Origin: Dipylidium caninum
Taxonomy: Eukaryota; Platyhelminthes; Cestoda; Cyclophyllidea; Dipylidiidae
Length of the DNA: 64,000 nt
Assembly: GCA_017562135.1 (NCBI GenBank)
Contig: QEYB01001425.1
Location: 1-64,000 of the forward strand
Reading direction: 5' to 3'
Position numbers and translations under genes: made by a program. The notes beneath the pieces are model-generated. The model did not search any database. It saw only the letters and a list, made by a program, of their open reading frames with translations, and was not told the origin of the DNA. This document shows positions 1-32,753 of the stretch, in pieces. Within the stretch, counting starts at the first letter, position 1. Each line of letters starts with the position of its first letter.

Positions 1-990
1 TCCACCGCACCAACTACGGAACCGCACTTACTTGAACCACATCACACTCAAATCCTTTATTTTTGCCGAGAGCATTCAGATCATGTCTACACGCCGACCC
101 CCTATCCGACGACCCCGACGAAACCGACGACCCGACGCCCAGACGACCGCCGGAGATCGTGAGTACTTCTAGCGGAAACAGGTATATTGGCTAGGGCATA
201 AGGCTGATCACATCTGTCCGGTGCATGTTATTGTGAGCGAGGATTTGCAATAAGCCGAGTGAAGAACGTGCCGCTTTCCGATCAATAGGCTTAGTGCGTA
301 AACGCGAGACACTAGCCAAGCCACCTGGATTCGAAGTACCTCGCACACCTTCCACATTTTAGGCAGCTCACCAATCGGGAACCGGACCCTCATGACTCCT
401 TCTCAGACTACTCTACGCTACTCATACTCTACTCTACTGCTACTGCTATGCCATTGCCCCTTACTCTGTACCTGTAATGACCCACCGCCAGTGGACACAC
501 AGACTTGCACATGCCGACGGTATGGGGGTCTCGCGGGGCGGGATGAAGCTGAGACAGCCTATCATCACCACCTTTCTACCCTGCAACAAGTATCGGCTAC
601 CTAGGCCTGTAACACTCCCGCCATTCGAGCTCAGCTGCAGCCTTCCTTCGCTGTGCGCACAGGCGCGTTGCATATTGGTTTGACACCTTTTCGAGTAAGG
701 GATTAGAGAAGCGACGAGGGAGACTAACTGCCATAGCAGTATGTTCGGCTGTAGAGTGATAATAGTTTGCGTGGCAATGATTAGAAAGTGAGTATCCATT
801 ATATATAGCAGTCACACTGGCGCACTCTCACACCCTCTGCCACTATTAAACCCGTCCACTTACCAGCCACAAGCTACGCCCACTTCTCACTCTCACTCTC
901 GCCTAACCCCATCACCCCCACACTTCGCCGCTGACCACACCAAACACGCCGACCCCCACCCTCACCCTCGTTCCTCTCTCTCGCTTCCAT

Positions 991-1097
991 CTAGGCCCCT
1001 ATGAGGCCAGCCAAATACTGCGGTTCCAGCTCGCGCACAGCACGAGCTGCATCGATACTCACCATACAAGATTGCAGGTAAGGACCGATTAACGGTG
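991..1097 (-). ncRNA. Spliced-leader (SL) RNA gene, array copy 1
   Basis: The 35-nt leader exon occupies 1,097 down to 1,063, starting CACCGTTAATCGG and ending TTGTATG, followed directly by the donor GTGAGT. It resembles the cestode SL as I remember it, including the terminal ATG that can supply a start codon in SL-trans-spliced mRNAs. The intron part contains a stem (CAGCTCG paired with CGAGCTG in other copies; here the loop side is altered), an AUUUGG Sm-like site in CAGTATTTGGC, and a terminal inverted repeat (CTAGG/CCTAG). In this copy the terminal hairpin has one extra base. The 3' end at 991 is inferred from the end of the hairpin. SL RNA is a small nuclear RNA that donates its 5' exon and cap to pre-mRNAs. 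Confidence 0.9.
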
Positions 1098-1982
1098 CAC
1101 CACCTCTCGCCCGCCTCCACACCACACGCCCACCCGCGCTCCCCGCTCCGCTTCCGCTCTCCATGTCACACGTTCTCGCCCGGTTCGCACACCATACCCC
1201 AGCCTCACATGCCACATCTCACTACACTAATCAGCCATTTGATCTTTGCTCAAATCCTCCTCCTTCTTCCCCAACCATCACATTCTCCTCCCCCTACCGC
1301 CTACTTAACTATTGCCTCATAATCATTCCCGCCCGCCTTGCCCGCCTGCCGCCGCCGCCTGCCCGTCCCGTCCGTCCTCATCCAGCCACACAACAAGAGC
1401 GTTCTAGCCACCCTCACCCTCATCAACTGCATTTAAAATCGCCTTCTATCTCAACCTCCACCTCCACCTCACCTCCACCTCCACCTTTCCCTCCACCTCA
1501 CCTCCATCTAAATCTTCCATCTTCCATCCGCAACACCATTCCCCATCTCTATATTTTCAAGGCACATACACACACACACACACACACACACCCCACTCCA
1601 ACGTGTAGACCTCCTCCTCTCATACCCATAGCCATGCATATAACTATAACTATGCACAATCCATGCCCTTGCCCTGCCTTGGCTCATGCACATGCCTCTG
1701 CCCACCCTCGTCCTCATACTCACCATTACATTGACACTCCTTCCTACCTGCCACCATGACAATGCTCAACCAAAGCGCTCTCCCGACCTCATCGTCACCG
1801 GACGGGCAGAATGCCCACATGGTGAATACTTTCACAGCAGGTGCAGAGGACAACACTGGGCCTAGCTACATGAAGGCCAGATACACGCGCGTCTACTACT
1901 CGTCCAATGCCAGTCAACTCACATCCACGCTTTGTTTCAGTAATCTTCCACTCCCTCCTCAACAACATCCTCTCTACTCGCC

Positions 1983-2032
1983 TAACCTCCTCATACCCTA
2001 CCCTACCCTACCCTACCCTACCCTACCCTTAC
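1983..2032. repeat. Telomere-like CCCTA microsatellite inside the array unit
   Basis: A run of CCCTA/TACCC pentamers, GGGTA on the other strand. Equivalent runs occur in the other units near 4,530, 7,120, 9,680, 12,285 and 14,880. The motif is a pentamer and not the TTAGGG hexamer usual for animal telomeres, so it is treated as a spacer microsatellite. The minus strand is G-rich and could form quadruplexes. Confidence 0.85.
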
Positions 2033-3573
2033 ACTACACTAGCCTAATCTAACTAACTTAATTTTCCTACCTGCTTACCTTCACTTCACTTCACTAGACC
2101 CATCTCACCTTTTCTCCTTTTCTCATTTCGCTACCCCAACTTCCCTTCCTTCCCTTTCTTTCCCACCCTACCTTATCTTACCTTAACTACCTTACCTTTC
2201 CTTGGCCTTACATTTCTCTCTCTATCCCCTCCATCCTGCTCTGCCCTCCCTCGCCTCCTGCTTCCACTTCCCTTGCTTCTCTAGTCTACCTTGCCTCCAT
2301 TCTCTCGAATTTCCTTGCCTTGCCTTCGCCATTCCTCCCTTCCTTCCCTTCCTCCTTCTCCCTTCCTCCCCCCCCTTTCTTCCTCCCTTCCTCTCCCCCT
2401 TGCCTCCCTATTCTATTGCGCACTGGTCTGCCTGCGTTTGCTTTCGCGAGCCTTGCGTGTTTGCGTGCCTGTTCCCCTGCTCTGCGACTTGATGCTTTCA
2501 CGCACTGCTTCACCGACTGCTTCACCCCACCCCCGCCATTGCTTCACCGCACACTAGCCGGGAACCGCACTTACTTGAACCACATTCACCACTCAATCCT
2601 GTTATTTTTGCCGAGAGCATTCGAGATCATGTCTCGACCCCCTATCCGCACGACCCGACGACTCGCCAGACGACGCCGTGAGATGTGAGTACTTCTGAGC
2701 GGAAGAACAGTTGATATGGCTAGGGCATAGAGGCTGGCATCACATCTGTCCGTGTGCATGTAGTTGTGAGCGAGGATGTGCAATAAGCCGTAAGTGAAGA
2801 AGGTGCCGCGTTCCGAGTTATCAATAGGCTTAGTGCGTGAACCGCGAGACACGTAGCAAGCCACGTGGATGCGAAGGACTCGCACACCTTCCACAATTGT
2901 AGCAGCGTCAGCGCAATCGGAACCGACGCTCATGACTTCCTTCTCAGACACTGCTACTGCTACTGCTACTGCTACTGCTACTGCCTATTGCCAGTGCCCC
3001 TGGTTACTCTGGGTACCGTGCCTAAATGACCGCAGCGCCAGTGGACACAGACGTGCACATGCCGACGGTATTGTGTTCTCGCGGAGCCGTGTGGTTGAAG
3101 GCTGAGACAGCCTTTCATCCACTCACCTTTTCTACCCTGCCGACAAGGTATCGCTTACCTAGTGCCTGGTGAGACACTCGCCGCCATTCGAGCTCAGGCT
3201 GCGAGCCTGTGCCTTCGCGTTGCTGCGCACGAGGGCCGCGTGCATGTGGTTTTGCGTGTCGGAAGTAAGGGGGGAGATTAAGAGAAGCCGACGGAGGTGA
3301 GACTAACTGCATAGCAGTATGTTCGGCTGTGAGAGTGATGAATAGGCGTGCTGTGGCAATGATGAGAAGTTGAGGTAGCCATTAGTATACTAGCAGTCAA
3401 CACTGGCGCACTCTCGAGCACCTCTGCCACATTGAACCCGTCCCACTTACCAGCCACGAAGCTACGCGCACTCTCACTCTCACTCACGCTAGACTCAGCC
3501 CCACACTCCCTGACCCCTAACAACCCAAACACGCCGACCGCACCACCTCACCCTCTTCTCTTCTTGCTTCCAT

Positions 3574-3679
3574 CTAGGCCCCTAGAGGCCAGCCAAATAC
3601 TGGTTCCAGCTCGCGCACGAGCACGAGCTGCATCGATACTCACCATACAAGATTGCAGGTAAGGAACCGATTAACGGTG
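3574..3679 (-). ncRNA. Spliced-leader RNA gene, array copy 2 (one-base insertion in exon)
   Basis: This copy has the same leader exon (3,679 to 3,644), GTGAGT donor, stem-loop, Sm-like AUUUGG and terminal hairpin as the other copies. The exon has one additional base in the GGTCC stretch (it reads GGTTCC), making it 36 nt rather than 35. The stem after the donor is intact. It could be a sequence variant of the leader, a non-functional copy or an assembly error. Confidence 0.87.
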
Positions 3680-4008
3680 GCCACACCGTCTCGCCCGCTC
3701 CACACCACGCGCACCGCTTGCCCGGCTCCGCTTCCGCTCTCCATGTCACACGTCTCGCCCGGTTCGCACACCCATACCCCAGCCTCACATAGGCTCACAT
3801 TCACTAGCACTAATCACCATGATCTTTTGCTCAATCCCCTCCTTCTCCCACCATCACATTCTCCTCCCCCTCCGCCTACTTACTATTGCTTTAGTAATGC
3901 ATGCCGCCCGCCCGCTCGTCTGCCTGCCCGACTCTCCAGCCACCAACAAGAGCATTCTCGCCACTCTCACCCTCATCAACTGCATTCAAATCGTCTTCTA
4001 TCTCAACT

Positions 4009-4091
4009 TCCACCTCCACCTCCACCTCCACCTCCACCTCCACCTCCACCACGTCAATCTCCATCTCCATCTCCATCTCCATCTCCATCTC
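4009..4091. repeat. CTCCAC / ATCTCC hexamer microsatellite
   Basis: About seven CTCCAC hexamers are followed by about seven ATCTCC hexamers, all pyrimidine-rich on the plus strand. The same block is present near 9,150-9,240, and shortened forms lie near 1,455, 6,605, 11,770 and 14,375. Homopurine/homopyrimidine tracts of this type can adopt triplex structures. Copy number varies between units, as expected of slippage. Confidence 0.9.
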
Positions 4092-5508
4092 TATATTTTC
4101 AACGCACACACACACACACACACCCCACTCCAACGTGTAGAGCTCCTCCTCTCATACCCATAGCCATGCATATAACTATAACTATGCACAGCATCCATGC
4201 CCTTGCCCTTGGTCATGCCTCTGCCCACCCTCGTCCTCATACTCACCATTACATTGACACTCCTTCCTACCTGCCACCATGACAATGCTCAACCAAAGCG
4301 CTCTCCCGACCTCATCGTCACCGGAAAGGGCGAAATGCCACTGGTGAATACTTACAAAGCAGGTGCAGAGGAACAACCTGGGCCTGGCTACATGGAGGCC
4401 AGATACACGCGCGTCTACACTCGTCCACATGCCAGCCTCCATAACTCACATCCACGCTTGTTTCCAGTAATCTCCACCTCCACTCCTCAACAAGGCCATC
4501 CTCTCTACTCGCCTAACCTCCATCAACCCTACCCTACCCTACCCTTCCTACCCTACCTACACTACACTAGCCTAATCTAACCTGACTTATTTTTTCCTAA
4601 CACTTCACTTACTTAGACCCATCTCACCTTTCCTCGCTTCTTGGCTTACCCAACTTCCCTTTCCTTCCCTTTCTTTCCCTACCCTACCTTATCTTACCTT
4701 ACACTACCTTCCTTTCTTACCTTACATTACTTTCTCTCCCTGGCCTATTCCCTCCCATGCCCTGCCCTCCTCGCCTCCCCTGCCTCCTTTCCCATCCCCT
4801 TGCCTTCCGCTTGCTCTGTCTACCTTTGCCTCCATTCTCTCGAATTTCCTTGCCTTGCCTTGCCTTGCCTTCACCCTTCCTCCCTTCCTCCCTTCCTCCC
4901 TTCCTCCCCCCTTCCTTTCTATTGTCTATTCACGCACTCGTCTCTGACCTTGCTTGCCGGCGTGGCTGCCTGCCTGCGTGCCTGCTTGCCTCTTTGCCTT
5001 TTTGCCTCTTTGCCTGTTCTCCTGCTCGATTGCTTGACTGCTTGACTGCTTCACGCACTGCTTCACCGACTGCTTCTCCCACTGCTTCACCGCATTGTTC
5101 ACGCACGCACTAGCGGGAACCGCACTTACTTGAACCACATTCACACTCAATCCTGTTATTTTTGAGACGAGAGCATTCGAGATCATGTCTACACGCCGAC
5201 CCGCCTATCCGACGACCCGACGACCGAACGCCAGACGACCCGCCGTGAGATTGGAGTACTTCTGAGCGGAAGACAGTGATATGGCTAGGGCATAGAGGCT
5301 GGCATCACGTCTGCCAGTGTGCACGTAGTTGTGAGGCGAGGATGTGCACTACGCCGTAGTGAAGAAGGTGTCGCGTTCCGAGGTCTATAGGCTAAGTACG
5401 TGAACCGCGAGACAAGTAGCAAGCCACGTGGATGCGAAGGACATCGCACACCTTCCACATTGTAGACAGCGACAGCGGAATCGGACACGACGCTCATGAC
5501 TTCTTCTC

Positions 5509-5578
5509 AGACTACTGCTACTGCTACTGCTACTGCCACTGCCACTGCCACTGCCACTGCCACTGCCACTGCCACTGT
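5509..5578. repeat. CTACTG / CCACTG microsatellite
   Basis: Several CTACTG hexamers are followed by seven CCACTG hexamers. Matching tracts occur near 2,948, 8,075, 10,690 and 13,285. Units 3, 5 and 6 carry the CCACTG extension, while units 2 and 4 have only CTACTG. The tract is therefore a useful marker of which units share recent ancestry. Confidence 0.9.
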
Positions 5579-6149
5579 TACTCTGGGTACCGTGCTAAAT
5601 GTCCGCAGCCGCCAGTGGGACACAGACGTGGACATGCCGACGGTGTTGTGTCTCGCGGGGCGTGTGGTTGAAGGCTGAGACAGCCTTTCATCACTCGCCT
5701 ATTCGACCCTGCCGACAAGGTATCGGCTTACCTAGTGCCTGGTGAGACACTCGCCACCATTCGAGGCTCAGGCTGCGAGCCTGTGCCTTCGCGTTGCTGC
5801 GCACGAGGGGACGCCATTCATGTGGTTTTGCGTGGCGGAAGGTAAGGGGGAGATTGGGAGAAGCGATGGAGGTGAGACCAGCTGCATAGTAGTATGCTCG
5901 GCTGTGAGAGTGAGTGAATAGGCGTGTGTGCAATGATGAGAAGTGAGGGTAGCCATTAGTATACTAGCAGTCACACAGCGCACACTCTCGAGCACCCTCG
6001 GCCACATTGAATCCACCCACTTACGAGCCACGAAGCAACGCACCACTCCTTACTCTCACTCTCGCCTAGACCTCAGCCCCACACTCGCCTGCCTGACCAC
6101 ACCAAACACGCCGACCGCCCACCTCACCCTCTTCTCTTCTTGCTTCCAT

Positions 6150-6248
6150 CTAGGCCCCTAGAGGCCAGCCAAATACTGTCCAGCTCGCACGAGCACGAGC
6201 TGCATCGATACTCACCATACAAGATTGCAGTAAGGACGATTAACGGTG
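6150..6248 (-). ncRNA. Spliced-leader RNA gene, array copy 3 (degenerate exon)
   Basis: The leader exon (6,248 to 6,216) is only 33 nt because two single bases are missing, one in GGTCC and one in ACCTGC. The donor GTGAGT and the terminal hairpin are kept. The linker before the Sm-like site is also shortened. It is likely a decaying SL gene or a region with assembly errors. Confidence 0.8.
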
Positions 6249-8695
6249 CCACCACCGTCTCGCCCGCCTCCACACACACGCCACCCGCTTGGCCCCGCTC
6301 CGCTTCCGCTCTCCATGTCACACGTCTCGCCCGTTCGCACGCCATACCCCCAGCCTCACATGGCCCATCTCACTAGCACTAATCACCATCTCGATCTTTG
6401 CTCAATCCTCCTCCTTCTCCCACCATCACATTCTCCTCCCCCTTACTCCTACTTACTATTGCCTCAGTAATGCATTCCCGCCCGCCTGCGCCGCCTGCCC
6501 CCTGCCGCCTGCCCGTCCGTCCGTCCGTCTATCCAGCCACAAACAAGAGCGTTCTAGCCACCCTCACCCTCATCAACTGCATTTAAATGCCTTCTATCTC
6601 AACCTCCACTCCACCTCACCCACCTCCACCTCCACCTCCACCTCCATCTAAATCTCCATCTTCATCCGCAACACCATCCCATCTCTATATTTTCAACGCA
6701 CACACACACATACAAACCACTCCAACGTTTTAGGCCTCCTCTCTCATACCCAAAGTCATGCATATAAATATAACAATTGCACACATCCATGCTTGCCTTG
6801 CCCTGGGTCATGCCTCTGCCACACTCGTTCTCATACTCTCCATCACATTGACACTCCTTCCTACCCTACCACCATGACAATCCTCGACCCAAAGCGCTCT
6901 CCCGACCTCATCGTCACCGGACGGGCAGAATGCCCACATGGTGAATACTTTCACAGCAGGTGCAGAGGACAACACTGGGCCTAGCTACATGGAGGCCAGA
7001 TACACGCGCGTCTATACTCGAAATGCCAGCTCCATACTCACATCACGCTTGTTTCCATTATCTCCACCTCCCTCCTCAACAAGGCCATCCTCTCTACTCG
7101 CCTAACCTCCATCACCCCTACCCTACCCTACCCTATCCTACCCTACCCTACTTACACTACACTAGCCTAATCTAACCTGACTTATTTTTTTCCTAACCTG
7201 CCCTCACTTCACTTCACTAGACCCCATCTTCACCTTTCCTCGCTTCGATTCGTCTACCCCAACTTTCCCTTTCCTTCCCTTTTTCCTACTCCTACTTATC
7301 TTACCTTACACTACCTTACCTTTCCTTACCTACATTACTTTCTCTCCCCTCCTATCCCCTCCCATCCTATTGTCTTCTCCCTGCCTCCTTTGCCCATCCC
7401 CCTTCCGCTTCTCTAGTCCTACCTTTGCCTCCATTCTCTCGAATTTCCTTGCCTTGCCTTCGCCATTCCTCCCTTCCTCCCTTCCTCCCTTCCTCCCTTC
7501 CTCCCCCCTTCCTCCCTTCTCCCCCTTCCTCCCTATTTCTATTCAGCCGCACTGGTCCTGCGTTTGCTTGTCGGCGAGCCTGCGTGCCTGCTTTGTGCCT
7601 GTTCCCTGCTCGATCTCTTGACTGCTTCACGCACTGCTTTCACCCACTGCTTCACGATTGCTTCACCGCACGCACTAGCGGAACCGCACTTACTTGAACC
7701 ACATTCACACTCATCCTGTTATTTTTGCCGAGAGCATTCGAGATCATGTCTACACGCCGACCCGCCTATTCCGACGACCGACACCCGACGCCCAGACGAC
7801 CCGCCGTGAGATGTGCAGTCCTTCTGCGTGGGAGAGAGTTGATATGGCTAGGCGCATAGAGGCTGGCATCACGTCTGCCAGTGTGCACGTAGTTGTGAGG
7901 CGAGGATGTGCACTACGCCGTAGTGAAGAAGGTGTCGCGTTCCGAGGTCTATAGGCTAAGTACGTGAACCGCGAGACAAGTAGCAAGCCACGTGGATGCG
8001 AAGGACATCGCACACCTTCCACATTGTAGGCAGCGTCAGCGCAATCGGAACCGACGCTCATGACTTCTTCTCAGACTACTGCTACTGCTACTGCTACTGC
8101 TACTGCTATTTGCCAGTGCCCCTGGTACTCTGGGTACCGTGCTAAATGACCGCAGCCGCCAGTGGGACACAGACGTGCACATGCCGACGGTATTGTGTCT
8201 CGGGAGCGTGTGGATGAAGGCTGAGACAGCCTTTCATCACTCACCTTTTCTACCCTGCCGACAAGGTATCGGCTTACCTAGTGCCTGGTGAGACACTCGC
8301 CGCCATTCGAGGCTCAGGCTGCGAGCCTGTGCCTTCGCGTTGCTGCGCACGAGGGGCCGCGTGCATGTGGTTTTGCGTGTCGGAGGTAAGGGGGGATTAA
8401 GAGAAGCGACGGAGGTGAGACTAACTGCATAGCAGTATGTTCGGCTGTGAGAGTGAGTGAATAGGCGTGCGTGGCAATGATGAGAAGTTGAGGTAGCCAT
8501 TAGTATACTAGCAGTCACACTGGCGCACTCTCGAGCACCCTCTGCCACATTGAACCGTTCCACTTACCAGCCACGAAGCTACGCGCCACTTCTCACTCTC
8601 ACTCTCGCCTAGACCTCAGCCCCACACTCGCCTGCCTGACCACACCAAAACCACGCCGACCGCCCACCTCACCCTCGTTTCTCTTCTGCTTCCAT

Positions 8696-8799
8696 CTAGG
8701 CCCCTAGAGGCCAGCCAAATACTGGTCCAGCTCGCGCACGAGCACGAGCTGCATCGATACTCACCATACAAGATTGCAGGTAAGGACCGATTAACGGTG
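8696..8799 (-). ncRNA. Spliced-leader RNA gene, array copy 4
   Basis: This is a consensus copy. The 35-nt exon runs from 8,799 to 8,765 and is identical to copies 1, 5 and 6, followed by GTGAGTATCGATG. The stem CAGCTCG/CGAGCTG, the Sm-like AUUUGG and the CTAGG/CCTAG hairpin are all intact. No promoter element (snRNA-type proximal sequence element) could be recognised upstream, i.e. to the right on the plus strand. Confidence 0.92.
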
Positions 8800-11315
8800 G
8801 CCACCACCGTCTCGCCCGCCTCCACACCACACGCCACCCGCTTGGCCGGCTCCGCTTCCGCTCTCCATGTCACACGCCTCGCCCCGTTCTGCACGCGCAT
8901 ACCCCAGGCCTCACATTGCTCCATCTCACTAGCACAATCACCATTTGATCTTTGCTCAATCCCTCCTCCTTCTCCCACCATCACATTCTCCTCCCCCTAC
9001 TCCTACTTACTATTGCCTCAGTAATGCATTCCCGCCCGCCTGCCCGCCTGCCCGCCTGCCGCCTGCCGTCCGTCCGTCCGTCTATCCAGCCACCAACAAG
9101 AGCATTCTCGCCACTCTCACCCTCATCAACTGCATTCAAATCGTCTTCTATCTCCACCTCCACCTCCACCTCCACCTCCACCTCCACCTCCACCTCCACC
9201 ACGTCAATCTCCATCTCCATCTCCATCTCCATCTCCATCTCTATATTTTCAAGGCACATACACACACACACACACACCCCACTCCAACGTGTAGACCTCC
9301 TCCTCTCATACCCATAGCCATGCATATAACTATAACTATGCACATACCCATGCCATTGCCCTGGGTCATGCCTCTGCCCACCCTCGTCCTCATACTCACC
9401 ATTACATTGACACTCCTTCCTACCTGCCACCATGACAATGCTCAACCAAAGCGCTCTCCCGACCTCATCGTCACCGGACGGGCAGAATGCCCACATGGTG
9501 AATACTTTCACAGCAGGTGCAGAGGACAACACTGGGCCTAGCTACATGGAGGCCAGATACACGCGCGTCTACGTACTCGTCCAATGCCAGCCTCCATACT
9601 CACATCCACGCTTGTTTCCAGTAATCTCCACCTCCCTCCTCAACAAGGCCATCCTCTCTACTCGCCTAACCTCCATCACCCTACCCTATCCTACCCTACC
9701 CTACCCTACCCTACCTTACACTACACTAGCCTAATCTAACCTGACTTATTTTTTTCCTAACCTGCCCTCACTTCACTTCACTAGACCCCATCTCACCTTT
9801 CCTCGCTTCGATTCGTCTACCCCAACTTCCCTTTCCTTCCCTTTCTTTCCCTACCCTACCTTATCTTACCTTACACTACCTTACCCTTTCCTTACCTTAC
9901 ATTACTTTTCTCTACCCCTCCTATCCCCTCCCATCCTTGCTCTCCCCTCCCTCGCCTCCTTTCCCATCCCCTTCCCTCCGCTTCTCTAGTCTACCTTTGC
10001 CTTCCATTCTCTCGAATTTCCTTGCCTTGCCTTCGCCATTCCTCCTTCCTCCCTTTCCTCCCTTCCTCCCTTCCTCCCTTCCTCCCCTTCCTTCCCTTCC
10101 TCCCCCCTTCCTCCCTATTCTATTCAGCGCACTGGTCCCTGCGTTTGCTTGTCGGCGAGCCTGCGTGCCTGCGTGCCTGTTCTCCTGCTCGATTGCTTGA
10201 CTGCTTGACTGCTTCACGCACTGCTTCACCGACTGCTTCTCCCACCGCTTCACCGCATGCACTAGCCAGAACTCGCACTTACTTGACTCGCGTTCACGCT
10301 CAATCCTGTTGTTTTGACCGAGAGCACTCGAGATCATGTCTACGCGCCGACCCGCCTATCCGACGACCCGACGACCCGACGCCCAGACGACCCGCCGTGA
10401 GATGTGGAGTACTTCTGAGCGGAAGACAGGTGATATGGCTAGGGCATAGAGGCTGGCATCACGTCTGCCAGTGTGCACGTAGTTGTGAGGCGAGGATGTG
10501 CACTACGCCGTAGTGAAGAAGGTGTCGCGTTCCGAGGTCTATAGGCTAAGTACGTGAACCGCGAGACAAGTAGCAAGCCACGTGGATGCGAAGGACATCG
10601 CACACCTTCCACATTGTAGGCAGTGGCAGCGACAGCGACAGCGACAGCGACAGCGGAATCGGACACGACGCTCATGACTTCTTCTCAGACTACTGCTACT
10701 GCTACTGCTACTGCCACTGCCACTGCCACTGCCACTGCCACTGTTACTCTGGGTACCGTGCTAAATGTCCGCAGCCGCCAGTGGGACACAGACGTGGACA
10801 TGCCGACGGTGTTGTGTCTCGCGGGGCGTGTGGTTGAAGGCTGAGACAGCCTTTCATCACTCGCCTATTCGACCCTGCCGACAAGGTATCGGCTTACCTA
10901 GTGCCTGGTGAGACACTCGCCACCATTCGAGGCTCAGGCTGCGAGCCTGTGCCTTCGCGTTGCTGCGCACGAGGGACGCCATTCATGTGGTTTTGCGTGG
11001 CGGAAGGTAAGGGGGAGATTGGGAGAAGCGATGGAGGTGAGACCAGCTGCATAGTAGTATGCTCGGCTGTGAGAGTGAGTGAATAGGCGTGTGTGGCAAT
11101 GATGAGAAGTGAGGTGGCGATTGGTGTACGAGCAGTCACACAGGCACACTCTCGAGCACCCTCGGCCACATTGAATCCACCCACTTACGAGCCACGAAGC
11201 AACGCACCACTCCTTACTCTCACTCTCGCCTAGACCTCAGCCCCACACTCGCCTGCCTGACCACACCAAACACGCCGACCGCCCCACCTCACCCTCGTTC
11301 TCTTCTCGCTTCCAT

Positions 11316-11419
11316 CTAGGCCCCTAGAGGCCAGCCAAATACTGGTTCAGCTCGCACACGAGCACGAGCTGCATCGATACTCACCATACAAGATTGCAGG
11401 TAAGGACCGATTAACGGTG
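11316..11419 (-). ncRNA. Spliced-leader RNA gene, array copy 5
   Basis: The consensus 35-nt leader exon (11,419 to 11,385), GTGAGT donor, Sm-like site and terminal hairpin are present. The stem after the donor differs by a substitution and small changes in the loop relative to copy 4. Confidence 0.91.
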
Positions 11420-12634
11420 ACCACCATCCTCTCGCCCGCCTACACACCACGCGCCACCCGCTTGGCCGGCTCCGCTTCCGCTCTCCATGTCACACGCCTC
11501 GCCCCGTTCTGCACGCGCATACCCCAGGCCTCACATTGCTCCATCTCACTAGCACCAATCGCCATCCGCACTTCGCTCAATCCCCCTCCTTCTTCCCCTA
11601 CCACACTCCCCTCCCCCTCCGCCTACTTACTATTGCTTTAGTAATGCATGCCGCCCGCCCGCCCGCCTGCCCGCCTGCGTCCGTCCGTCCGTCTATCCAG
11701 CCACCAACAAGAGCATTCTCGCCACTCTCACCCTCATCAACTGCATTCAAATCGTCTTCTATCTCAACTTCCACCTCCACCTCCACCTCCACCTCCACCT
11801 CCATCTAAATCTCCATCTTCATCCGCAAACACCATCCCCATCTCTATATTTTCAAGGCACATACACACACACACACACACCCCACTCCAACGTGTAGACC
11901 TCCTCCTCTCATACCCATAGCCATGCATATAACTATAACTATGCACACATCCATGCCCTTGCCCTGGGTCATGCCTCTGCCCACACTCGTTCTCATACTC
12001 TCCATCACATTGACACTCCTTCCTACCTGCCACCATGACAATGCTCAACCAAAGCGCTCTCCCGACCTCATCGTCACCGGACGGGCAGAATGCCCACATG
12101 GTGAATACTTTCACAGCAGGTGCAGAGGACAACACTGGGCCTAGCTACATGGAGGCCAGATACACGCGCGTCTACGTACTCGTCCAATGCCAGCCTCCAT
12201 ACTCACATCCACGCTTGTTTCCAGTAATCTCCACCTCCCTCCTCAACAAGGCCATCCTCTCTACTCGCCTACCCTCCTTCACCCTACCCTACCCTACCCT
12301 ACCCTACCCTACCTTAACACTACACTAGCCTAATCTAACCTGACTTATTTTTTTCCTAACCTGCCCTCACTTCACTTCACTAGACCCCATCTCACCTTCC
12401 CTCGCTTCGATTCGTCTACCCCAACTTCCCTTTCCTTCCCTTTCTTTCCCTACCCTACCTTATCTTACCTTACACTACCTTACCTTTCCTTACCTTACAT
12501 TACTTTCTCTCCCCTCCTATCCCCTCCCATCCTCTGCTCGCCCCTCCCTCCCCTCGCCTCCTTTCCCATCCCCTTCCCTCCGCTTCTCTAGTCTACCTTT
12601 GGCCTCCATTCTCTCGAATTTCCTTGCCTTGCCT

Positions 12635-12690
12635 TCACCTTTCCTCCCTTCCTCCCTTCCTCCCTTCCTCCCTTCCTCCCTTCCCCTTCC
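12635..12690. repeat. TTCC-type pyrimidine microsatellite in the array unit
   Basis: Repeated CCTTCCTC blocks of pure pyrimidine on the plus strand. Equivalent tracts occur in every unit (for example near 2,340, 4,880, 7,470, 10,060 and 15,225). Length and exact phase differ between units. Confidence 0.85.
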
Positions 12691-13910
12691 TCCCCCTTCC
12701 TCTCTTCCTCCCCCCTTCCTCCCTATTCTATTCAGCGCACTGGTCCCTGCGTTTGCTTGTCGGCGAGCCTGCGTGCCTGCGTGCCTGTTCCCCTGCTCGA
12801 TTGCTTGACTCTTGACTGCTTCACGCACTGCTTCACCGACTGCTTCTCCCACCGCTTCACCGATTGCTTCACCGCACGCACTAGCGGGAACCGCACTTAC
12901 TTGAACCACATTCACACTCAATCCTGTTATTTTTTGCCGAGAGCATTCGAGATCATGTCTACACGCCGACCCGCCTATCCGACGACCCGACGACCCGACG
13001 CCCAGACGACCCGCCGTGAGATGTGCAGTCCTTCTGCGTGGGAGAGAGTTGATATGGCTAGGCGCATAGAGGCTGGCATCACGTCTGCCAGTGTGCACGT
13101 AGTTGTGAGGCGAGGATGTGCACTACGCCGTAGTGAAGAAGGTGTCGCGTTCCGAGGTCTATAGGCTAAGTACGTGAACCGCGAGACAAGTAGCAAGCCA
13201 CGTGGATGCGAAGGACCTCGCACACCTTCCACATTGTAGGCAGCGTCAGCGCAATCGGAACCGACGCTCATGACTCCTTCTCAGACTACTGCTACTGCTA
13301 CTGCTACTGCCACTGCCACTGCCACTGCCACTGCCACTGTTACTCTGGGTACCGTGCTAAATGTCCGCAGCCGCCAGTGGGACACAGACGTGGACATGCC
13401 GACGGTGTTGTGTCTCGCGGGGCGTGTGGTTGAAGGCTGAGACAGCCTTTCATCACTCGCCTATTCGACCCTGCCGACAAGGTATCGGCTTACCTAGTGC
13501 CTGGTGAGACACTCGCCACCATTCGAGGCTCAGGCTGCGAGCCTGTGCCTTCGCGTTGCTGCGCACGAGGGACGCCATTCATGTGGTTTTGCGTGGCGGA
13601 AGGTAAGGGGGAGATTGGGAGAAGCGATGGAGGTGAGACCAGCTGCATAGTAGTATGCTCGGCTGTGAGAGTGAGTGAATAGGCGTGTGTGGCAATGATG
13701 AGAAGTGAGGTGGCGATTGGTGTACGAGCAGTCACACAGGCACACTCTCGAGCACCCTCGGCCACATTGAATCCACCCACTTACGAGCCACGAAGCAACG
13801 CACCACTCCTTACTCTCACTCTCGCCTAGACCTCAGCCCCACACTCGCCTGCCTGACCACACCAAACACGCCGACCGCCCACCTCACCCTCGTTCTCTTC
13901 TCGCTTCCAT

Positions 13911-14016
13911 CTAGGCCCCTAGAGGCCAGCCAAATACTGGTCCAGCTCGCGCACACGAGCACGAGCTGCATCGATACTCACCATACAAGATTGCAGGTAA
14001 GGACCGATTAACGGTG
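13911..14016 (-). ncRNA. Spliced-leader RNA gene, array copy 6
   Basis: The consensus 35-nt leader exon (14,016 to 13,982) is followed by GTGAGT. The stem loop carries two extra bases relative to copy 4, while the Sm-like site and terminal CTAGG/CCTAG hairpin are unchanged. This is the last SL gene before the array ends about 1.6 kb further right. Confidence 0.91.
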
Positions 14017-16614
14017 GCCACCACCGTCTCGCCCGCCTCCACACCACACGCCACCCGCTTGCCCCGCTCGCTTCCGCTCTCCATGTCACACGTCTCGCCC
14101 TTTCCGCACACCCATACCCCCAGCCTCACATGGCTACATCTCACTAGCACTAATCGCACCATTTGATCTTTGCTCAATCCTCCTCCTTCTCCCACCATCA
14201 CATTCTCCTCCCCCTACTCCTACTTACTATTGCCTCAGTAATGCATTCCCGCCCGCCTGCCGCCCGCCTGCCCGCCTGCCCGTCCTGCCGTCGTCTATCC
14301 AGCCACAAACAAGAGCATTCTAGCCACCCTCACCCTCATCAACTGCATTCAAATCGCCTTCTATCTCAACCTCCACCTTCCATCCACCTCCACCTCCATC
14401 AATCTCCATCTTCATCATTCATCTCTATATTTTCAACGCACCACACACACACACACATACAACACCACTCCAACTTTTTAGTTCCTCTCTCTCATACCAT
14501 AGTCATGCACTATAACTATAACATGCACATTCCATGCCTTGCCCTTTTCCCTTGGTTCATGCTCTGCCCACCCTCGTTCTCATACTCCATTACATTGACA
14601 CTCCTTCCTACCTACCACCATGACAATGCTCGACCAAAGCGCTCTCCGGACCTCATCGTCAACCGGAAAGGCGAGAATGCCCACGTGGTGAATACTTTAC
14701 AAAGCAGGTGCAGAGACAACCCTGGGCCTTGGCTACATGAAGGCCAAGATACACGCGCGTCTACACTCAGTCCCATTGCAGCCTCCATACTCACATCCAC
14801 CTTTTTCCAGTATCTCCACCTCCCTCCTCAACAATTCCATCCTTCAGTCTACTCGCCTACCCTCCAACCCTACCTACCCTACCCTACCCTTACCCTACCT
14901 ACACTACACTAGCCTAATCTACCTGACTTATTTTTTTCCTACCTGCCCTCACTTCACTTCACTAGACCCCATCTCACCTTTCTCGCTTCGATTCAGTCTA
15001 CCCCAACTTCCCTTTCCTTCCCTTTCTTTCCCTACCCTACTACCTTACTTACACTACCTTACCTTTCCTTACCTTACCTTACTTTCTCTCCCATTCCTAT
15101 CCCCTCCATCCTCTGCCCTCCCCTTCGCTCCCCTCCTTTTCCCATCCCCTTCCCTCCGCTTCTCTAGTCTACCTTTGCCCTCCATTCTCTCGAATTTCTT
15201 GCCTTGCCTTTGCCATCCTCCCTTCCTCCCTTCCTCCCTTCCTCCCTTTCCTCCCTTCCCCCCTTCCTCCCTTCCTCCCTTTCCCCTCCCTTCCCCCGTT
15301 CCTTTCCCTATTGTCTTTCAGCGCACTGGTCCTGGCGTTTGCTTGTGGCCCTCCATTCTCTCGAATTTCCTTGCCTCTTTGCCATTCCTCCCAGTCCCTT
15401 TCCTCCCCCTTCCTTTCTTTGCGCACTGTCCCTGCTTTGCTTGTCGGCGAGCCTGCGTGCCTGCGTGCTGTTCCCCTGGCGATTGCTTGACCGCTTCACG
15501 CACTGCTTCACCGATTGCGTCACCGCACGCACTAGCGGGGAACCACACTTACTTGAACCACATTCACACTCAATCCTGTTACTTTTGCCGAACGCTGAAT
15601 ATTTTATTTTGCCTTCTCAGAAGTTACTTTTTTTAACAGTTTAATGTGCCCAACAATTCTAGTTCATTTATAATTGTTGGGTAACCCTTTATCAGGTTTT
15701 TCGCTCATTTGATTTCTGCAATATTCGCCCCAAATATATAAATTTTCTTCAGTATGTTGATTATCCGCATCTGTTGGGCGTCGACTTGTTTTACAGATCA
15801 TATGAAGAACAAATTTTAAATTTGGTCAATTTGTAGTAGTTATGAGTCGTTATTTGTGACAGGCTACATGTAGGTTTCTGACTTTCATTACTCATTTGTT
15901 GGAGTTCGGTAAAATTATGCGCTTAGTCCTTTTTCTTATATTTCCACCTTGTTCAGTCGATTTATCGGCAATAGCAGTTGGAATTTTTTCCACGAAATGA
16001 CTAATTCTGTTACTACTAAAAGAAAAAGATTTTGTGTATAGTTGTGTTTCACTACGATGGTAAGGTGGTATTATAAACGCCTCATCCCAGTATTCTTCCA
16101 CAGTCCGATATTGTGTTGCAGGCTGTAACCTTTGGCCGACAAGTGCAAGCAAATTCCGTCTTCACGCGGGAACGAGGAGGTGGTGGACGGAGACTCCAGG
16201 TATGCATGATCGCATCTGTCGCGACGCGCAAGGGTGTAGAGCTATTGGCGGCGGGAAAAAGATCCAAGGTCCGCAGGGTTATCAAATGCTTATTGTGCAC
16301 ATTTAAGGGATAAAAAATAATGTTCTTATTCAGCATTCAGAGAAATTAGATGGGAATGAGGTTACAAGACAAAGAATAGCTGTAATGGAAAAACGAATAT
16401 GTAATGGTGTAAGATGGGCAAGCATTGTGCTTTCAAGCCTGTTTTATTCAAAAGTCATTGTGCATATATTTCGGTCAAGTGTCTTGGAATACACTTATAG
16501 CTTTGTAATGATAGACCTTATGAATGAATGAATGAATGAAATATATGTAGAGCTCGAGAATTATTGGTCACACTTTAAATAAAAGAAACCGAAAAAGCCC
16601 ATTATTAGTTATTC

Positions 16615-16787
16615 AACTTCAACAAATTTTTCTTGTCAGTACAGCGAAGTAGTTTATTCTCCAAGCTTATTTTAAACAGTGATCAAACACCGCTCCGCTC
16701 AACTTCAACAAATTTTTCTTGTCAGTTACAGCGAAGTAGTTTATTCTCCAAGCTAATTTTAACAGTGATCAAACCACCGCTCCGCTC
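16615..16787. repeat. 85-bp tandem duplication
   Basis: Two adjacent copies, 16,615-16,699 and 16,700-16,787, both begin CAACTTCAACAAATTTTTC and end GCTCCGCTC. They differ only by a few single-base indels and substitutions, so the duplication is recent or conserved. Confidence 0.9.
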
Positions 16788-18664
16788 AATGGAAATATTA
16801 TTCTCTGCTATCCATGAGGGCACTGACTATAAACAGCTGAATTATTTTCTCACTGATAAGGCGAAAAGTGAATATAATGGACTGCATAATAATCCCAAAC
16901 ATTAAATCAAATTAGTGTGGTAGACTACATGGCACATGGGTCCGAAGTGGCTAAAGTAACTTGGAGTTGAAGGGGGCTAAATGCTTCTATACACTCCTCA
17001 ACTCAGACACAAGAAAACTCCTCTCTAGCTACCTCGCCGGGGAAGAAACACTGAGAATATTTCTACGTCATCGAAACTGCGGAATGGAAGCTATAGACGA
17101 TGCAGATTTTTAGCGCCATCTAATTAAACGAATTACGATAAACCAAAAATCCCTCTGTGATTTGGAGTTTGCAGAATCTTATTTAACTTTTTGAAGAGGT
17201 TTAGACTTATAACAAGGCTTGTCAGGTTGTTATAAATAGCCAATCAACTAATCTGACAACATTCAGTAACCAGATAACTCCTCGAGTTGAACCTGAAACA
17301 ATTTGAAAAGTTGTCAATCACTTTCTTGCCAAGCACCTTCAAAACTCACTGGCGGGTCATGTTGCTTTACCATATCCGCTGTTCTAGCATTCGGTATTTT
17401 TCCATCAATCGGACTCATTGTTCACATTTAACCTTTGAAATAATGGATACCTCAAACGTGTTTTGACTTGTGAATGATGAAAGATATTCTTTTTCCTGAA
17501 TCGTTTCTTATCTTGCATATTAAGACTGTGGACAAACTTTGTTGTTTACATTAATTAAGTCGAAAAGATTCAATATTGGAAGCCATCAGTCGAGTGATCA
17601 TCAGAGCTGTAATGAGGTTTTAGTTTCCTGACGAATGTTTAATGACGTCGAGATCCAACACACTGCCTTACGGACTGTCATGGAAGAGAGAAGCCTTTTA
17701 AACGCTGATTATTAATAATTAAAAAAATAAAGTTAAACTGTCAACTTAGATCAGATAAAACGAAAAGAGTTAGATCCAAGTGAAATGACGGATTAAAGAA
17801 AAGCTGACAAATTGTCAGACAAAATTCCCAAAAATTACGGTTATTCGTCGCTTTTAGAAGCATGTCTGAGCAGCCGACAGAAATTGTAGCGACTCCGAAA
17901 TTAGTAACTCACATACTCCGTCGGCCAGTCTCATTATCCCCTCGAGATCCCCCGACAAACAATCGTTCCCTCTACAACATGCCCAGTAAAGTAACACAAT
18001 GTTGGCTGCACAGAAGCCCTATTGTCTCCTCACCTCCCTCCTGATACGAACTGAATTAGTGCCCCTACGAGGAAATATTTAACTTGCACGTCTGATTTTT
18101 CTTCCCCTATTCAGCGCAATGGATAGTTTGACTCATCTGTAACGTTATCATTTGGCGAGGAGTGCCGAAACTCTACTCTTTCAAGTAAGCTGTTTCAACT
18201 ACATACTGGGCAACACCTCGTCGTGGCCTTTATCAGCCTCTTTATGTTTGCGCTCGGTGTCTGTGACCTCCGGACCGAAAGCCCCCCCCCCCCCATTTTC
18301 TCGCTGCACGATGGCTTGTAGGAGGGCGTAGGAACATCACGTTGCGGCCTATTTTAACCTCTGTTAATCACCCTAGTTCTGGTAAGCCCTCCCAAGCGGG
18401 TTCGCATATATCCGCCTTTACAGAGGAGTGGTGCAGGTTCTAAGGCATATTTAACACGAGTTGAGGAGACAGGCTTCCGATATGAGTCCTAATGGGTCCA
18501 TTGGAGTAAAGTGACTTGAGGCAATATTGTTGCCTTATCAGTGGCACGGTAATGGACTTCCTCTCGGTTGTCTACCCCACACTCATTCGAGAATCAGTTA
18601 TTGTCCACTTCAGCAGTCTTAACAACACGCGATATCATCTGAAGAACTCCTCGGATATAGGAAC

Positions 18665-18912
18665 CACTTTAGTGAGTAGGTGAGGATTGATAACTGTGAT
18701 GTAATCGCAAACAATTTGCTCGCCTCACGATGCTCTTCCATCTATCAAGACGAGATCGTGCCTTTGAGAGAGCGCGAGATATCTTCACACTTTAATGAGT
18801 AGTTAAGAATTGATAGCTCTGGTGCAGTGGCAAACACTTTTCTCGCCTAACGATCTTTTTACATTTTTTAAAACGAGATTTTGTCTTTGAGAGGGCAAGA
18901 GAGATCTCTACA
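18665..18912. repeat. Imperfect ~123-bp tandem duplication
   Basis: Two adjacent diverged copies begin with CACTTTA(G/A)TGAGTAG at 18,665 and 18,788. Both contain CTCGCCT(C/A)ACGAT and a GACGAGAT-like segment followed by CTTTGAGAG. No coding or mobile-element signature is visible. Confidence 0.75.
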
Positions 18913-21900
18913 CATTGTTAACGCAGGAAAGATATGCATAAGTTGACACAGGATGACCAAATAAAAAGCTTTAACTTCTCTCTCTTTTGTTGTACTCTCA
19001 ACGCGGGCGTGAATAGCGGAAATTCAGTTACTCCTCCACAGGAGCAAATGTTTTCGTTCACGGCGGCTAAAATAATAGAATTCAATTTTTTTCCATGAGA
19101 TAAGTAACTCTTCACGCAAAGGGAATTTGAAGGCCCACAGTGTCCTTAGCATACAATACACTGAGTGGAAAATGTTTGTCTTTTGCGTTTAGGCCACAGT
19201 TTTCATTTTTTCCTCCACCTGAAGAGTGCTTTTTGTGCTCCACAGATGCGTGTGGTAGGTAAAAACGTCGTTCTCGTGCGCAGCTAATGGTACTGCACGT
19301 CAACCTCGGCTCTGTCATTAAATTCTAAAAAATTGTGCCCTCTGCTCTCGCACTTAACTGGCATACATCTCTCTACCTTCCTGTTCTCTCTCTTCCTCCC
19401 AATATTTGCCTATCGGCAGCATAATTTCCTCTCATCCCAGATCACTTGAGCATCATTTGAATGCCACACAACGGCGGCGAATCTGCCTTCAAAGGAGCCA
19501 CAGGGCCTTGAACTTTCGCCTTCGTCAAGTGGATTTCAGCAGTAAGCGCTGCATCTGTACCTGCGCCCCGTTCTCCTCCCTTCTTTCCCTGACCCACTAA
19601 GTTTAATAAACGAAAAACCTCTCCTTCTGCTCCACCCACATAATCATTTACGATTTTTCTTCTTAAGCACAAGTTCAGATCTTATCCCATCATTCTAATC
19701 TCTTTTTCTGTATTATTAGTGAATGCTTAAGGGGAGTTGGACTGCGTATAGTCAAAATCCCCAGAAATCCAAGTTTATTTAGGGATTAAAACCCTTGGGA
19801 ATGAGCAAGTAAGTGTGTGCCTGGTGCGCCAAGAACATTTTATGTATAAAAGAGGCCCAGGAATGGGAAAATGAAATGAAGAAAGCTATGTAAACTGCGC
19901 AACTGTTCGTGCAGCAGTGTAGGAAGTTTACTGTCGGCTTAAACTTTTATCAACAGGTACAACTTCATTAAAAGTGAAAGTGTCTCGTGTTCAAAATTTT
20001 TTAATTCAGGTAGCTGTTAAACATGTAGGTAGAATTTTCGCAAAATCAAATCGAAAATTGCCCTCTGATGATGTCACTTGGTGTGTACCACACTGCCATC
20101 AGAAGTTATTTAGCGAATTGACTTGGGACAAGTATGGCTGAAGTAGCGCTATGATCCGTGAGATTGACGGTAAGGCCAACGCCCAAAAAGACTGGATTTT
20201 GGTCGGTGAACGTCCCCACTGGTCGGCGATGTAGGAGGGGCGGGGGAACGGGGGGGGGAGGGGGGGCGCGGAGAGAGTTGAGACAGGCACGGTGGGATGT
20301 GGACAAACAAGGGGATGGGCGCATGAGTCAATAGTCTCCAGATAATTGTAGTCTTAGTCACCGAATCACATTAACGGTTGCCATGAGAATGCACCATCCC
20401 ATCTTAGGGGCCACACATAGTCACAATTGGCCAACTTAAATAACTTTTTCTCATACAGCATTTACTGAAGTAAATCTCGAGTTTTGCGAACATTCGGAAC
20501 CAAAGTGGGCTTTGGGAAGTCCACAAAACGGGTAACTGCGTCAGAGCCGGAAAGGTGGTCAGCACCACGCCGGAAGAAAATAGCACCGTCTCATATTAAA
20601 TGCCTTTTTATGGTAGAGGACCGAAGTGAAAGTGGTGGTTATAATTCAACACAATAAAAGGGTTGGAGACGGATGCGATCGTATCAAGCGAATCTGAAAA
20701 TGCATGTCTCGTGTTGACTCCAATTAGGTTTCTGGTGGTCATGGCCTGACTTCTTACTGCCTTCCTTGTTTATTGGCGAAAGATGCCTGCTTTTTACGGT
20801 CATCTACTTGAGCTGAACCAGCGATGAAGCAAGGTGATATTCGTCGTCAAGGCGGCATTAGTTAAGGGTGAATAAAACCATATATATGAGCGGGGATTTT
20901 AAGTTTTTTAAATTTCCTTATCCGATTTAGTTCTGCCTGCGCCCTGATTCCACTTGTACTACCCAAACGAGAGGTGAGAACAAGTTGTTAGTTGATCCGC
21001 CAGAAAATCTGTGGGAAGGCGAATACCGGAGGAAGTTCAGGTTAGCATGAAAGTGACTGAAAAGCGCTGTCGCCCTAAATTAAAGGCTCTTTTTCAGTGA
21101 GTATCCCAAATGCTTGGCAGAGCGTTGGCAATGAGAAATGTCCAGTCAAAATACCTTAATCCGAGAGGTCAGCTTCCTTCCTGAGCAGCCAAACATCTGT
21201 CAACGACGCTTTGGTGCCAGTGAAATACTTTTCGGTCTGCTCAACTTTTTAGTCGTCCCGTCTTGGGCGCCTGGAAGACCCGAATTGGGGTAATTTTTGT
21301 TGTTCTTTGAACTACCCGAGTTTTAATAATTAGCGAGCGCGAGTACCGGTAAGGGTTAGATCTACGACCAAATTCCCACGATCTGTGCGTTGCAATAAGC
21401 TAAAGAAATGTTTTTGGTCGCTAAGGTCAGTGCATTAGGAGCCTCATTATCGTGTACAATAAAAACTGTGAAAGTCAACGGGACTGTAAAGTGGTGAAAC
21501 TATGTGAATTCACCATGGAAGGTGAAGTAACGATGGCCAACTGTCCCCGGGTGAATCAGCCGTTCTGACATATAGTTCCAGGGCGAAACTGCCTAGGTAG
21601 TGGACAAAAGCCTAGCAGGAAGAGGTTGGTGAGGCTTTTGTCGGAAAAATTTAATGTAATTTCAACTATTGTGAGCTGGACTTTATTTCCACATCGCAGC
21701 AATCACCGAGTAGACTCATATACTTGCCGTATCTATGGAAAGGAATCTATTCACAATGAAGAGCATTGGAATAGTAGGGCCGGGGGGATATTTTCTTTTA
21801 TTTCATTTTATGTGCTCTACACTCACCAAAGCCAGTGTGTGAGGTCTTCGGCGTTTTTAGAGGGGATGCCATTAAAGCTCCATAGACTTTGTCGGTTGAA

Positions 21901-22795
21901 TGCGTGCACATGAGTGAATCACAAAAGCTAAACTTATCTGGCGCCGGCCAAATGATTTATCGCGTGAGGTTATGCAACTTCCAACCTCTCCGACCGTTAA
22001 AATATTCGACTACCGCACACACACACACACACTGCTCAAATGCAATTCAAACAAAAAGTGTTTCGGCCGCGAGTGACACTCACTTTTTTAATAAAATTTT
22101 GTCATTTTTTGCTCTCCATCGCTCCGACAATTGGTTGAAGCTCAGAACTTTTGCCTACCTACTTTGCGGATAATTTTTACATTCCAGGACTCTTAATAGA
22201 TGTGTAGACCTGCAGTTGAGAGAGAGGCAGTCCTACGATTCTTATCCCCTGCAAATCTACCCGCCTAACTGATCTAAATGAGGAGAATATGCAACTGGCC
22301 AAGGTCTGTTGCCTCGGTCAGACCCTCACCTCAGCTGGATGGTAAAGGCTGACTGTCGTATTCACGTCCAACACGAGATTTGATAACCCATAAAAATGTC
22401 ACCCAGTAAATGCGTATTTTGCGCACTCTTTTCGTACGGTTTAATCCACGCAGGTAACCCTCGCAGATGAGAATACAGGAGGTAACAGCGCGGGTCCTAC
22501 GCTTCTCCCTCTCTCTCTTCTCTCACACACACACATAAGCGACACACCTTAGTCAGTAGTCAGTAAATTCTCAGGTAATTACGTTTGTCGAGTCATGTTG
22601 GCAACATTATTGCCTAAACTAAAATAGGGGACACCGCGGTGTTCCGCTTCGCCGGAAACGAAACGTATTGGTTAAAAACGTTAGTGCTGCTAATGGCGGG
22701 TACCGAGATAATAATTAATTGGTATAAAAGGCAAACGAAAAGGGATCTATTTTGCATCTCAAAAACAAAAAAAGAAAGAAACAAAAAATTGGTAT

Positions 22796-31450: not shown

Positions 31451-32753
31451 ATGTCAATTCCAAATCTTACCGTACCCGGTTTTAGCATACCCTGCATTGG
31501 CTTCGGAACGTACAAGGTTTTTTTGCTTGCCAAATTCTTGACAAAATTAATTGTAAATAGCTAGCAGTGGACGACGTAGAGACTGCTCTCGACGCAGCTC
31601 TAGAAACTGGTTACCGTCATATTGACTGTGCCCACCTGTATCTTAATGAAGAAGCCATTGGGAATACTTTGAAACGATGGTTTGACGAAAAGAAAATCGA
31701 TAGGAGTGAATTGTTTGTGACCTCTAAGGTAAATTTGAGTTAGGACTATTCAAAGCTCTGGAATACATGTCACAGGCCTGATTTGGTTCGAATTGCTTGT
31801 CTTAAAAGTTTGGAGTTACTGCAGTTGTCGTATTTGGACCTCTACCTCGTGCATTGGCCAGTCTCTTATAAGGCATGATCTAAATAACGCAAATTAATTA
31901 GGTATTCGATAGCCTGGGGATGCCATTCTTCCAGTCGACGAAAGTGGTAAGACACTTTTTGACGAAACGCTCCTGGAAGATACTTGGAAGGTAATAAAAC
32001 CTTGGTTGTATAAAGACCTATTCAGGCAATGGAGGGTCTGGTGAACGAGGGCTTGGTTCTTCACATTGGTTTATCTAATTTCAACGAGTCACAAATTCAA
32101 CGCATCATTAACTGTGCTACAATCAGACCCGTCATGTTACAAATCGAAAGTAATCTACATTTCCCAAACCAGAAACTGATTGATTTCGCCACGTCAAACG
32201 GCATCCTATCTACTGCCTTTGCGCCTCTCGGTTCACCGTATCGTGAAATGTACGCAGTAGCCAATCCAAGCCCTTGTTATTTATTTATTTAAGTACCCTG
32301 TCAATTGAAGAAGTACTGCATACTTTTGCAGAACAGACAGACCGCATCGTTTGATTGACGAACCCATACTAAAGAAGGTAGCCGAAAAGTATGGTAAGAC
32401 ACCAGCACAAGTCGCCATTCGTCACGGACTTCAACGCGGGATTTGCGTGGTGCCAAAGAGTCGAACGCCAGAGAGAATCCGGGAAAACTTCCAGGTAACC
32501 GTCAAGCTCAGATACAGAATATTGAACTTTATCATCGCTACTTTTTCATTATCTATAGGTTTTTGATTTTGAATTAACAAACAATGAGATGAAAGAGTTA
32601 TCTTCCCTCGGTATCTATCAGCGTCAAATACGTGCAGATCCGTAAGGCCTATTCCACTTATCGTCTTTTCGTAAATGAATCAAAGTATGTTTGGGTTCTT
32701 CGGTTTTTAGGATGCGTGGCAACCAAGAATTTCCATTCCTCGAACTCCTTTAG
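31451..32753 (+). CDS. Aldo-keto reductase (AKR1-like), 8 exons, 313 aa
   Basis: The product is an NAD(P)H-dependent oxidoreductase that reduces aldehydes or ketones in the cytosol. Exons: 31451-31516, 31561-31728, 31756-31872, 31913-31990, 32026-32249, 32332-32494, 32559-32641 and 32711-32753, which sum to 942 nt without a stop. The TIM-barrel family signature is complete. [11 protein letters not shown] supplies the catalytic Asp and Tyr, FVTSKLW the Lys and LYLVHWP the His. Also present are GLSNFN and the NADP-binding segment near [11 protein letters not shown]. The length matches the usual 310-325 residues. Intron 2 is only 27 nt and holds an in-frame stop. Intron 3 begins GC instead of GT. 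The substrate is not predictable. The gene is tail to tail with SLD5, with stop codons 85 bp apart. Confidence 0.93.

Follow-up and report, generated by a model that had tools for sequence, protein, structure and literature searches.

The left part of the stretch analysed here, 64,000 bases from the tapeworm Dipylidium caninum (the window; bases 1-64,000 of the 64,833-bp contig C531, in an assembly of 106.3 Mb and 920 contigs), is very probably one end of a tandem array of spliced-leader (SL) RNA genes, with a predicted 35-nt leader that would be donated by trans-splicing and with genes that would be switched on via an upstream element shared with the genes for the small nuclear RNAs (snRNAs) U1, U2, U4 and U5. 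Each SL gene would be its own transcription unit of the snRNA type, read by RNA polymerase II (Pol II). The SL RNA would be capped and would take up an Sm core, and its GU donor would react with the 3' acceptor of a precursor messenger RNA, which would thereby acquire the leader, perhaps with a start codon. A high copy number would meet the demand for an RNA that each reaction consumes, and the copies would be kept similar by exchange between units.

We identified six SL RNA gene copies in the window, all on the minus strand, with a spacing between neighbours of 2,551-2,620 bp; each coincides with a conserved block of about 110 nt, the limits of which are those given for the six copies below. 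Beyond the last SL gene lies a partial unit of about 1.57 kb, which ends at the right edge of the array, base 15,591, where A+T-richer DNA starts. Since the first base of the window is also the first base of the contig, the array runs off the contig itself at the left. The array and its gene copies are as follows.

1..15591, no strand assigned: SL tandem array, made up of part of unit 6, five whole units and a partial leading unit (unit consensus aligned along the window)
13907..14016, minus strand: SL copy w1, exon 13982-14016 (conserved block, exon alignment, fold)
11312..11419, minus strand: SL copy w2, exon 11385-11419 (conserved block, exon alignment, fold)
8692..8799, minus strand: SL copy w3, exon 8765-8799 (conserved block, exon alignment, fold)
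6146..6248, minus strand: SL copy w4, exon two bases short, weak predicted fold, possible assembly errors
3570..3679, minus strand: SL copy w5, exon longer by one base
987..1097, minus strand: SL copy w6, exon 1063-1097 (conserved block, exon alignment, fold)

The identity of the units to their consensus drops toward the contig end (95.5, 95.3, 93.3, 89.9, 89.0 and 81.8%), and the gaps climb in the same direction (from 47 in 2,616 columns to 121 in 1,180); for the partial unit next to the flank, identity to the consensus is 87.5%. The decay tracks the distance to the contig end and is read as assembly quality, so that we do not claim unit-to-unit differences as biology.

In copies w1, w2, w3 and w6, the first 35 nt are CACCGTTAATCGGTCCTTACCTGCAATCTTGTATG, with small indels in w4 and w5. 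Comparison with the platyhelminth/taeniid leader CACCGTTAATCGGTCCTTACCTTGCARTTTTGTATG, as listed in PMC3795323, shows that 34 of 36 columns match when R is counted as A, and the first 20 nt of the exon are identical to an Echinococcus SL primer given in PMC4031130. The exon ends in ATG and is followed by a GTGAGT donor in all six window copies, and the Sm-like sequence TATTTGG is likewise found in all six (7 and 8, respectively, of the nine copies that include three on a second contig, C354, where the donor occurs in 1 and the Sm-like sequence in 2). According to PMC12582326, the conserved regions of SL RNAs in flatworms are AUG+GU and UVUUUGG, and in cestodes two hairpins precede the Sm-like site. 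The leader length of 35 nt falls within the 31-36 nt, ending in AUG, by which flatworm SL RNA genes are recognized. The predicted folds consist of two hairpins with the donor in the first (z = -3.4 to -5.2 in five of the six copies). When the unit consensus was scanned on both strands, the SL part gave the strongest fold (z = -5.7), followed by a window overlapping the SL start (-3.8); a second structured RNA was not indicated in the unit, where the best windows outside the SL part and this start overlap reached -3.1 or weaker.

Across the assembly, we found nine SL matches, of which six lie in the array, three on C354 and none elsewhere; a 27-nt SL pattern with up to 3 mismatches gave 7 matches, all on C531 or C354. 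At the Rfam gathering score, 5S ribosomal RNA genes had no match on the window, on C354 or in the last 1.8 kb of the contig, and none of the 47 genome-wide 5S matches, from a search that sets a lower bound, is on C531 or C354. The flank of C354 aligns to that of the window with 89% identity over 11,453 columns, including 608 gaps. In the 500-nt bins with at most 1.4% gaps (7 of 21), mismatches range from 3.4 to 13%, and the region of a G-protein-coupled receptor (GPCR)-like gene, described below, is gapped in 229 of 1,901 columns, with mismatches spread evenly over the codon positions (21, 20 and 24). Judged by this alignment, C354 shows the same array end in a diverged copy, parts of which are rich in errors. 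An earlier note on this DNA, made from the letters alone, had proposed a cestode-type SL exon with a GTGAGT donor, in six minus-strand copies recurring once per ~2.6-kb unit, in an array that runs off the left edge, lacks 5S linkage and may be one end of the main SL locus. The published leader and primer, the spacing, the start of the contig, the 5S searches and the confinement of all nine matches to the array or its diverged copy bear these points out, whereas the right end of the array, which the note had put at 14016, moves to 15,591.

Both C354 and C531 end within the array, as would be expected if they were the two outer ends of a single array inverted in its middle. This arrangement is extremely improbable, because their unique flanks align over 11 kb at 89% and thus show the same side of the locus twice, not two ends; C354 was accordingly ruled out as the other array end. 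The array might also be mostly non-functional satellite DNA, with the working SL genes elsewhere or missing from the assembly. Such a reading could draw on copy w4, with its exon indels and non-significant fold (z = -0.3), on a copy of C354 (c3) that has neither GTGAGT nor TATTTGG, and on the truncation of the array by the contig end. Two further results weigh against the main reading of the array as SL RNA genes: the Sm-like site is predicted in or at the loop of a small extra hairpin and not in an open strand, and no Rfam family matched, either at the gathering score in the regions searched for 5S or at E <= 1 within 11,400-16,600. Nevertheless, a 55-nt stretch of exon plus donor is identical in four of the six window copies, few parts of the unit are as well conserved as the SL part, the assembly holds no further SL match, and the sequence decay follows the distance to the contig end. 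We therefore consider satellite DNA very improbable and retain an array of SL RNA genes.

To compare promoters, we aligned the upstream 100-120 nt of SL and snRNA genes by their predicted 5' ends and searched all distances for a motif formed by a single ungapped 10-mer from each promoter, placed no more than 3 nt from a shared distance; U1_C711, U5_C533, U6 and near-duplicate promoters were left out of the main runs. The search identified an element centred on GCAAG near -48, common to the upstream regions of SL, U1, U2, U4 and U5 genes (-48 to -50). The 10-mers are GGGCAAGCGG in SL copy w1, CGGCAAGTGG in U1, GTGCATTCGG in the U1 variant, GGGCAAGTGG in U2, CTGCAAGAAT and GCGCAAGGGG in U4, and CGTCAAGGGG in U5. 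With w1 representing the SL genes, the motif scored 70.0, compared to a mean of 55.2 in dinucleotide shuffles (standard deviation 2.6, maximum 64.2; 0 of 250 as good). When each family was represented by a single promoter, the score was 58.5 vs. 45.4 in shuffles (none of 250 as good). Replacing w1 by the SL consensus, w2 or w4 gave 69.9, 67.7 and 67.7, respectively, with none of 150 shuffles as good in each case, and U6 in place of the U1 variant gave 64.9, compared to a maximum of 64.0 in 60 shuffles. We further built a 12-mer matrix from six snRNA promoters only and applied it to each SL copy (anchored p = 0.0035 for w1, p = 0.005-0.007 for the C354 copies c1-c3, and p = 0.025-0.028 for w4 and w5). 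When 31,258 positions on the two strands of the array were scored, the w1 site came second, or 13th if the U1 variant was excluded, and the sites of the other five copies came 27th to 1,437th. Altogether, the element is clear in the SL consensus and, to varying degree, in seven of the nine SL copies, but not in the most error-rich copy. The candidate sites in the window are as follows.

14054..14065, minus strand: candidate proximal element of copy w1, GGGGCAAGCGGG from -49
11457..11468, minus strand: candidate element of copy w2, CGGCCAAGCGGG from -49, weaker
8837..8848, minus strand: candidate element of copy w3, CGGCCAAGCGGG from -49, weaker
6284..6295, minus strand: candidate element of copy w4, GGGCCAAGCGGG from -47
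3713..3724, minus strand: candidate element of copy w5, CGGGCAAGCGGT from -45, out of line with the snRNA sites when tested jointly

The SL array could be real and the likeness near -48 still be due to chance in upstream regions that are G-rich, with the SL promoter being a different one; several results weigh on this side and against a shared element. Without SL, the snRNA genes scored 58.8 vs. 50.7 in shuffles, with 4 of 250 as good. When w1 was replaced by w5 or w6, the scores fell to 58.2 (24 of 150 shuffles as good) and 59.5 (8 of 150), and the SL site was then misaligned with the others. The anchored p was not significant for w2 and w3 (p = 0.11-0.12) or for w6 (p = 0.63). With their own family left out of the matrix, the U1 variant and two of the four U4 promoters did not peak at -49 to -51, and the other two U4 promoters scored only 3-5; three of the four U4 promoters had weak scores. 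Comparison of the downstream flanks by eye revealed no convincing 3' box. Against chance, dinucleotide shuffles preserve composition, yet none was as good for w1, the consensus, w2 or w4; the A+T-rich U4 promoters still have GCAAG at about -48; with their own family left out, the peak stays at -49 to -51 for the promoters of U2, U5 and the main U1 array; and the element is lacking in both U6 genes, in all six 5S genes tested, and in the isolated, low-scoring U1_C711 and U5_C533. Chance likeness is accordingly a possible but rather unlikely explanation. From the aligned promoter sequences, the element is likely to be a proximal sequence element common to SL and snRNA genes, and its shared position near -48 points to an snRNA-type Pol II promoter.

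The SL genes are not alone in their tandem format. In counts that are lower bounds, the genome has at least 46 matches to U2, at least 30 to U1 (26 above the cut-off), at least 14 to U5, at least 4 to U4 and at least 2 to U6, and the U1, U2 and U5 genes are mostly in tandem arrays. The median units are 993-1,068 bp for U2, 1,456-1,583 bp for U1 and 1,649-1,987 bp for U5, compared to 2,582 bp for SL. Small nuclear RNA genes of this genome thus often have long tandem units; that of SL exceeds the others but is of the same kind, and its length alone calls for no special explanation. The U1, U2 and U5 arrays resemble the SL array in their long units and in the element near -48 to -50, and differ in the RNAs that they encode and in their shorter units. 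The element common to SL, U1, U2, U4 and U5, together with the long-unit tandem format of SL, U1, U2 and U5, would fit one dedicated Pol II machinery that makes both RNA classes, and we somewhat favour the view that tapeworm SL genes are part of the snRNA gene system in this sense. Sharing of a proximal element between SL and snRNA genes is known in nematodes. Among the papers listed by a literature search, we saw none that reports such sharing for a flatworm, and the element is possibly new. It provides a candidate promoter element for both gene classes in a phylum in which the snRNA promoter motifs of Schistosoma mansoni are called highly derived (PMC2770079), and it is of more interest than the unit length.

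Several other features of the snRNA genes were observed. On contig C517, two U2 arrays face each other, one with 7 copies at 19887-26042 (plus strand) and one with 14 copies at 31946-45894 (minus strand), with medians of 993 and 1,068 bp. The two U6 matches found (C539:53615-53720, plus strand, and C233:2588-2694, minus strand) each form a head-to-head pair, spaced ~0.75-0.78 kb, with the gene that begins a U5 array. All four U4 promoters have ATAAAAG at about -71 to -76, ~23-28 nt upstream of the GCAAG element; it resembles a TATA box and lies farther out than is usual.

The spacer of the SL unit is only in part as the earlier note had it, namely ~2.5 kb of pyrimidine-rich microsatellite. On the SL strand, the microsatellite parts are 75% purine in consensus positions 1001-1750 and 70% in 2101-2450, consistent with that description, whereas ~750 nt (positions 251-1000) are 47% purine, that is, unbiased, and not microsatellite. 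Given this stretch, the published tandem SL arrays and the U1, U2 and U5 units of 1.0-2.0 kb, the claim of an unusual architecture and unit length was not upheld. The fraction of columns identical in all seven aligned units (bin means) is 89% in positions 1-100, which hold the SL gene, 85% in 251-1000 and ~59% from 1001 on. The ~750-nt non-repetitive block in each unit (window ~13017-13766 and equivalents) is thus conserved nearly as well as the SL gene; it lacks a long open reading frame (ORF) and, in the part searched, any match to an RNA family. The following part of it was used for a genome search.

13341..13608, minus strand: part of the conserved non-repetitive block (also 10745-11012, 8124-8391, 5579-5847, 3005-3270 and 485-660)

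This 270-nt piece occurs in nine places in the genome, each in the array or on C354. We found no indication of genes in the spacer, where ATG-started consensus ORFs reach at most 123 amino acids and two spacer ORFs lack a Pfam match, and a scan for transfer RNA genes found none.

Tandem SL arrays have been published for Echinococcus multilocularis, E. granulosus (93 loci in two clusters plus five loose) and Taenia multiceps, and a tandem SL-RNA cluster is defined by a common strand and a spacing of less than 5 kb (both from PMC12582326). With one strand and a spacing of 2,551-2,620 bp, the array falls under this definition and is a further case of the tandem SL loci already known from Echinococcus, T. 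multiceps and trematodes. It shares with the Echinococcus and T. multiceps clusters the one-strand tandem SL genes, the cestode leader, ATG+GU, the Sm-like site and the two hairpins, whereas its exon is one base shorter than the published taeniid leader and differs from it in one base. Tandem SL genes are also present in S. mansoni, another flatworm, but the unit here is four times longer than the 595-bp unit described for that species, whose SL RNA is of a single large hairpin type (PMC2770079). Hymenolepis microstoma, like D. caninum a cyclophyllidean tapeworm, has a leader that ends in ATG; unlike the array, its SL genes are four discrete loci with three leaders and no array (PMC7653826). 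With the array described here, one more tapeworm has tandem SL genes, unlike H. microstoma with its few dispersed ones.

Two genes to the right of the array were compared with their cestode homologues.

22,796-24,481, minus strand: GPCR-like gene, named by its homologues, no Pfam match
about 31,451-32,612, plus strand: aldo-keto reductase gene, seven exons by eye

The GPCR is 62-66% identical to Taenia and Echinococcus proteins, 46-47% to those of hymenolepidids and Anoplocephala, and 59% over 38% of the query to that of Hydatigera; the homologues of T. asiatica and E. multilocularis are 79% alike. The aldo-keto reductase is at most 72% identical to cestode proteins (70% in Mesocestoides corti). 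For mitochondrial cox1, the best hit reached 86% among named species and 87% among unnamed entries. By these identities the source differs from every species hit, and the GPCR comparison makes it probably a cyclophyllidean that belongs to neither Taenia nor Echinococcus. Homologues of both genes are on contigs of equal size in T. asiatica (130,945), T. crassiceps (19,046,179) and Anoplocephala perfoliata (37,650,078), and on different, short contigs in Hymenolepis diminuta, Rodentolepis nana and Hydatigera; equal-sized contigs in three of six species suggest that the neighbourhood is likely conserved. In E. multilocularis, the GPCR homologue is on a 20.1-Mb contig, which by its size we take to be chromosome 1. 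The SL cluster on E. granulosus chromosome 1 is called orthologous to the clusters of E. multilocularis and T. multiceps in PMC12582326. Taken together, the likely conserved neighbours and this published orthology suggest that the array is probably an orthologue of these clusters. Elsewhere in the window, two plus-strand exons (45885-51496) encode immunoglobulin-like domains of the CFAP65/HYDIN type (Pfam E = 2e-17 and 1e-9) and likely belong to a gene for a cilium protein, and the unique flank of the array contains two-copy tandem duplications of 87 bp (16613-16789) and 123 bp (18665-18907).

Finally, the assembly contains two mitochondrial sequence types. An alignment of contigs C637 and C471 (3,953 columns, 59 of them gapped) shows 86.4% identity, and C261 is 95.7% identical to C637, with 129 gap columns. 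The cox1 reading frame of C471 is broken; the sample may include two worm lineages, or C471 may be a nuclear copy.

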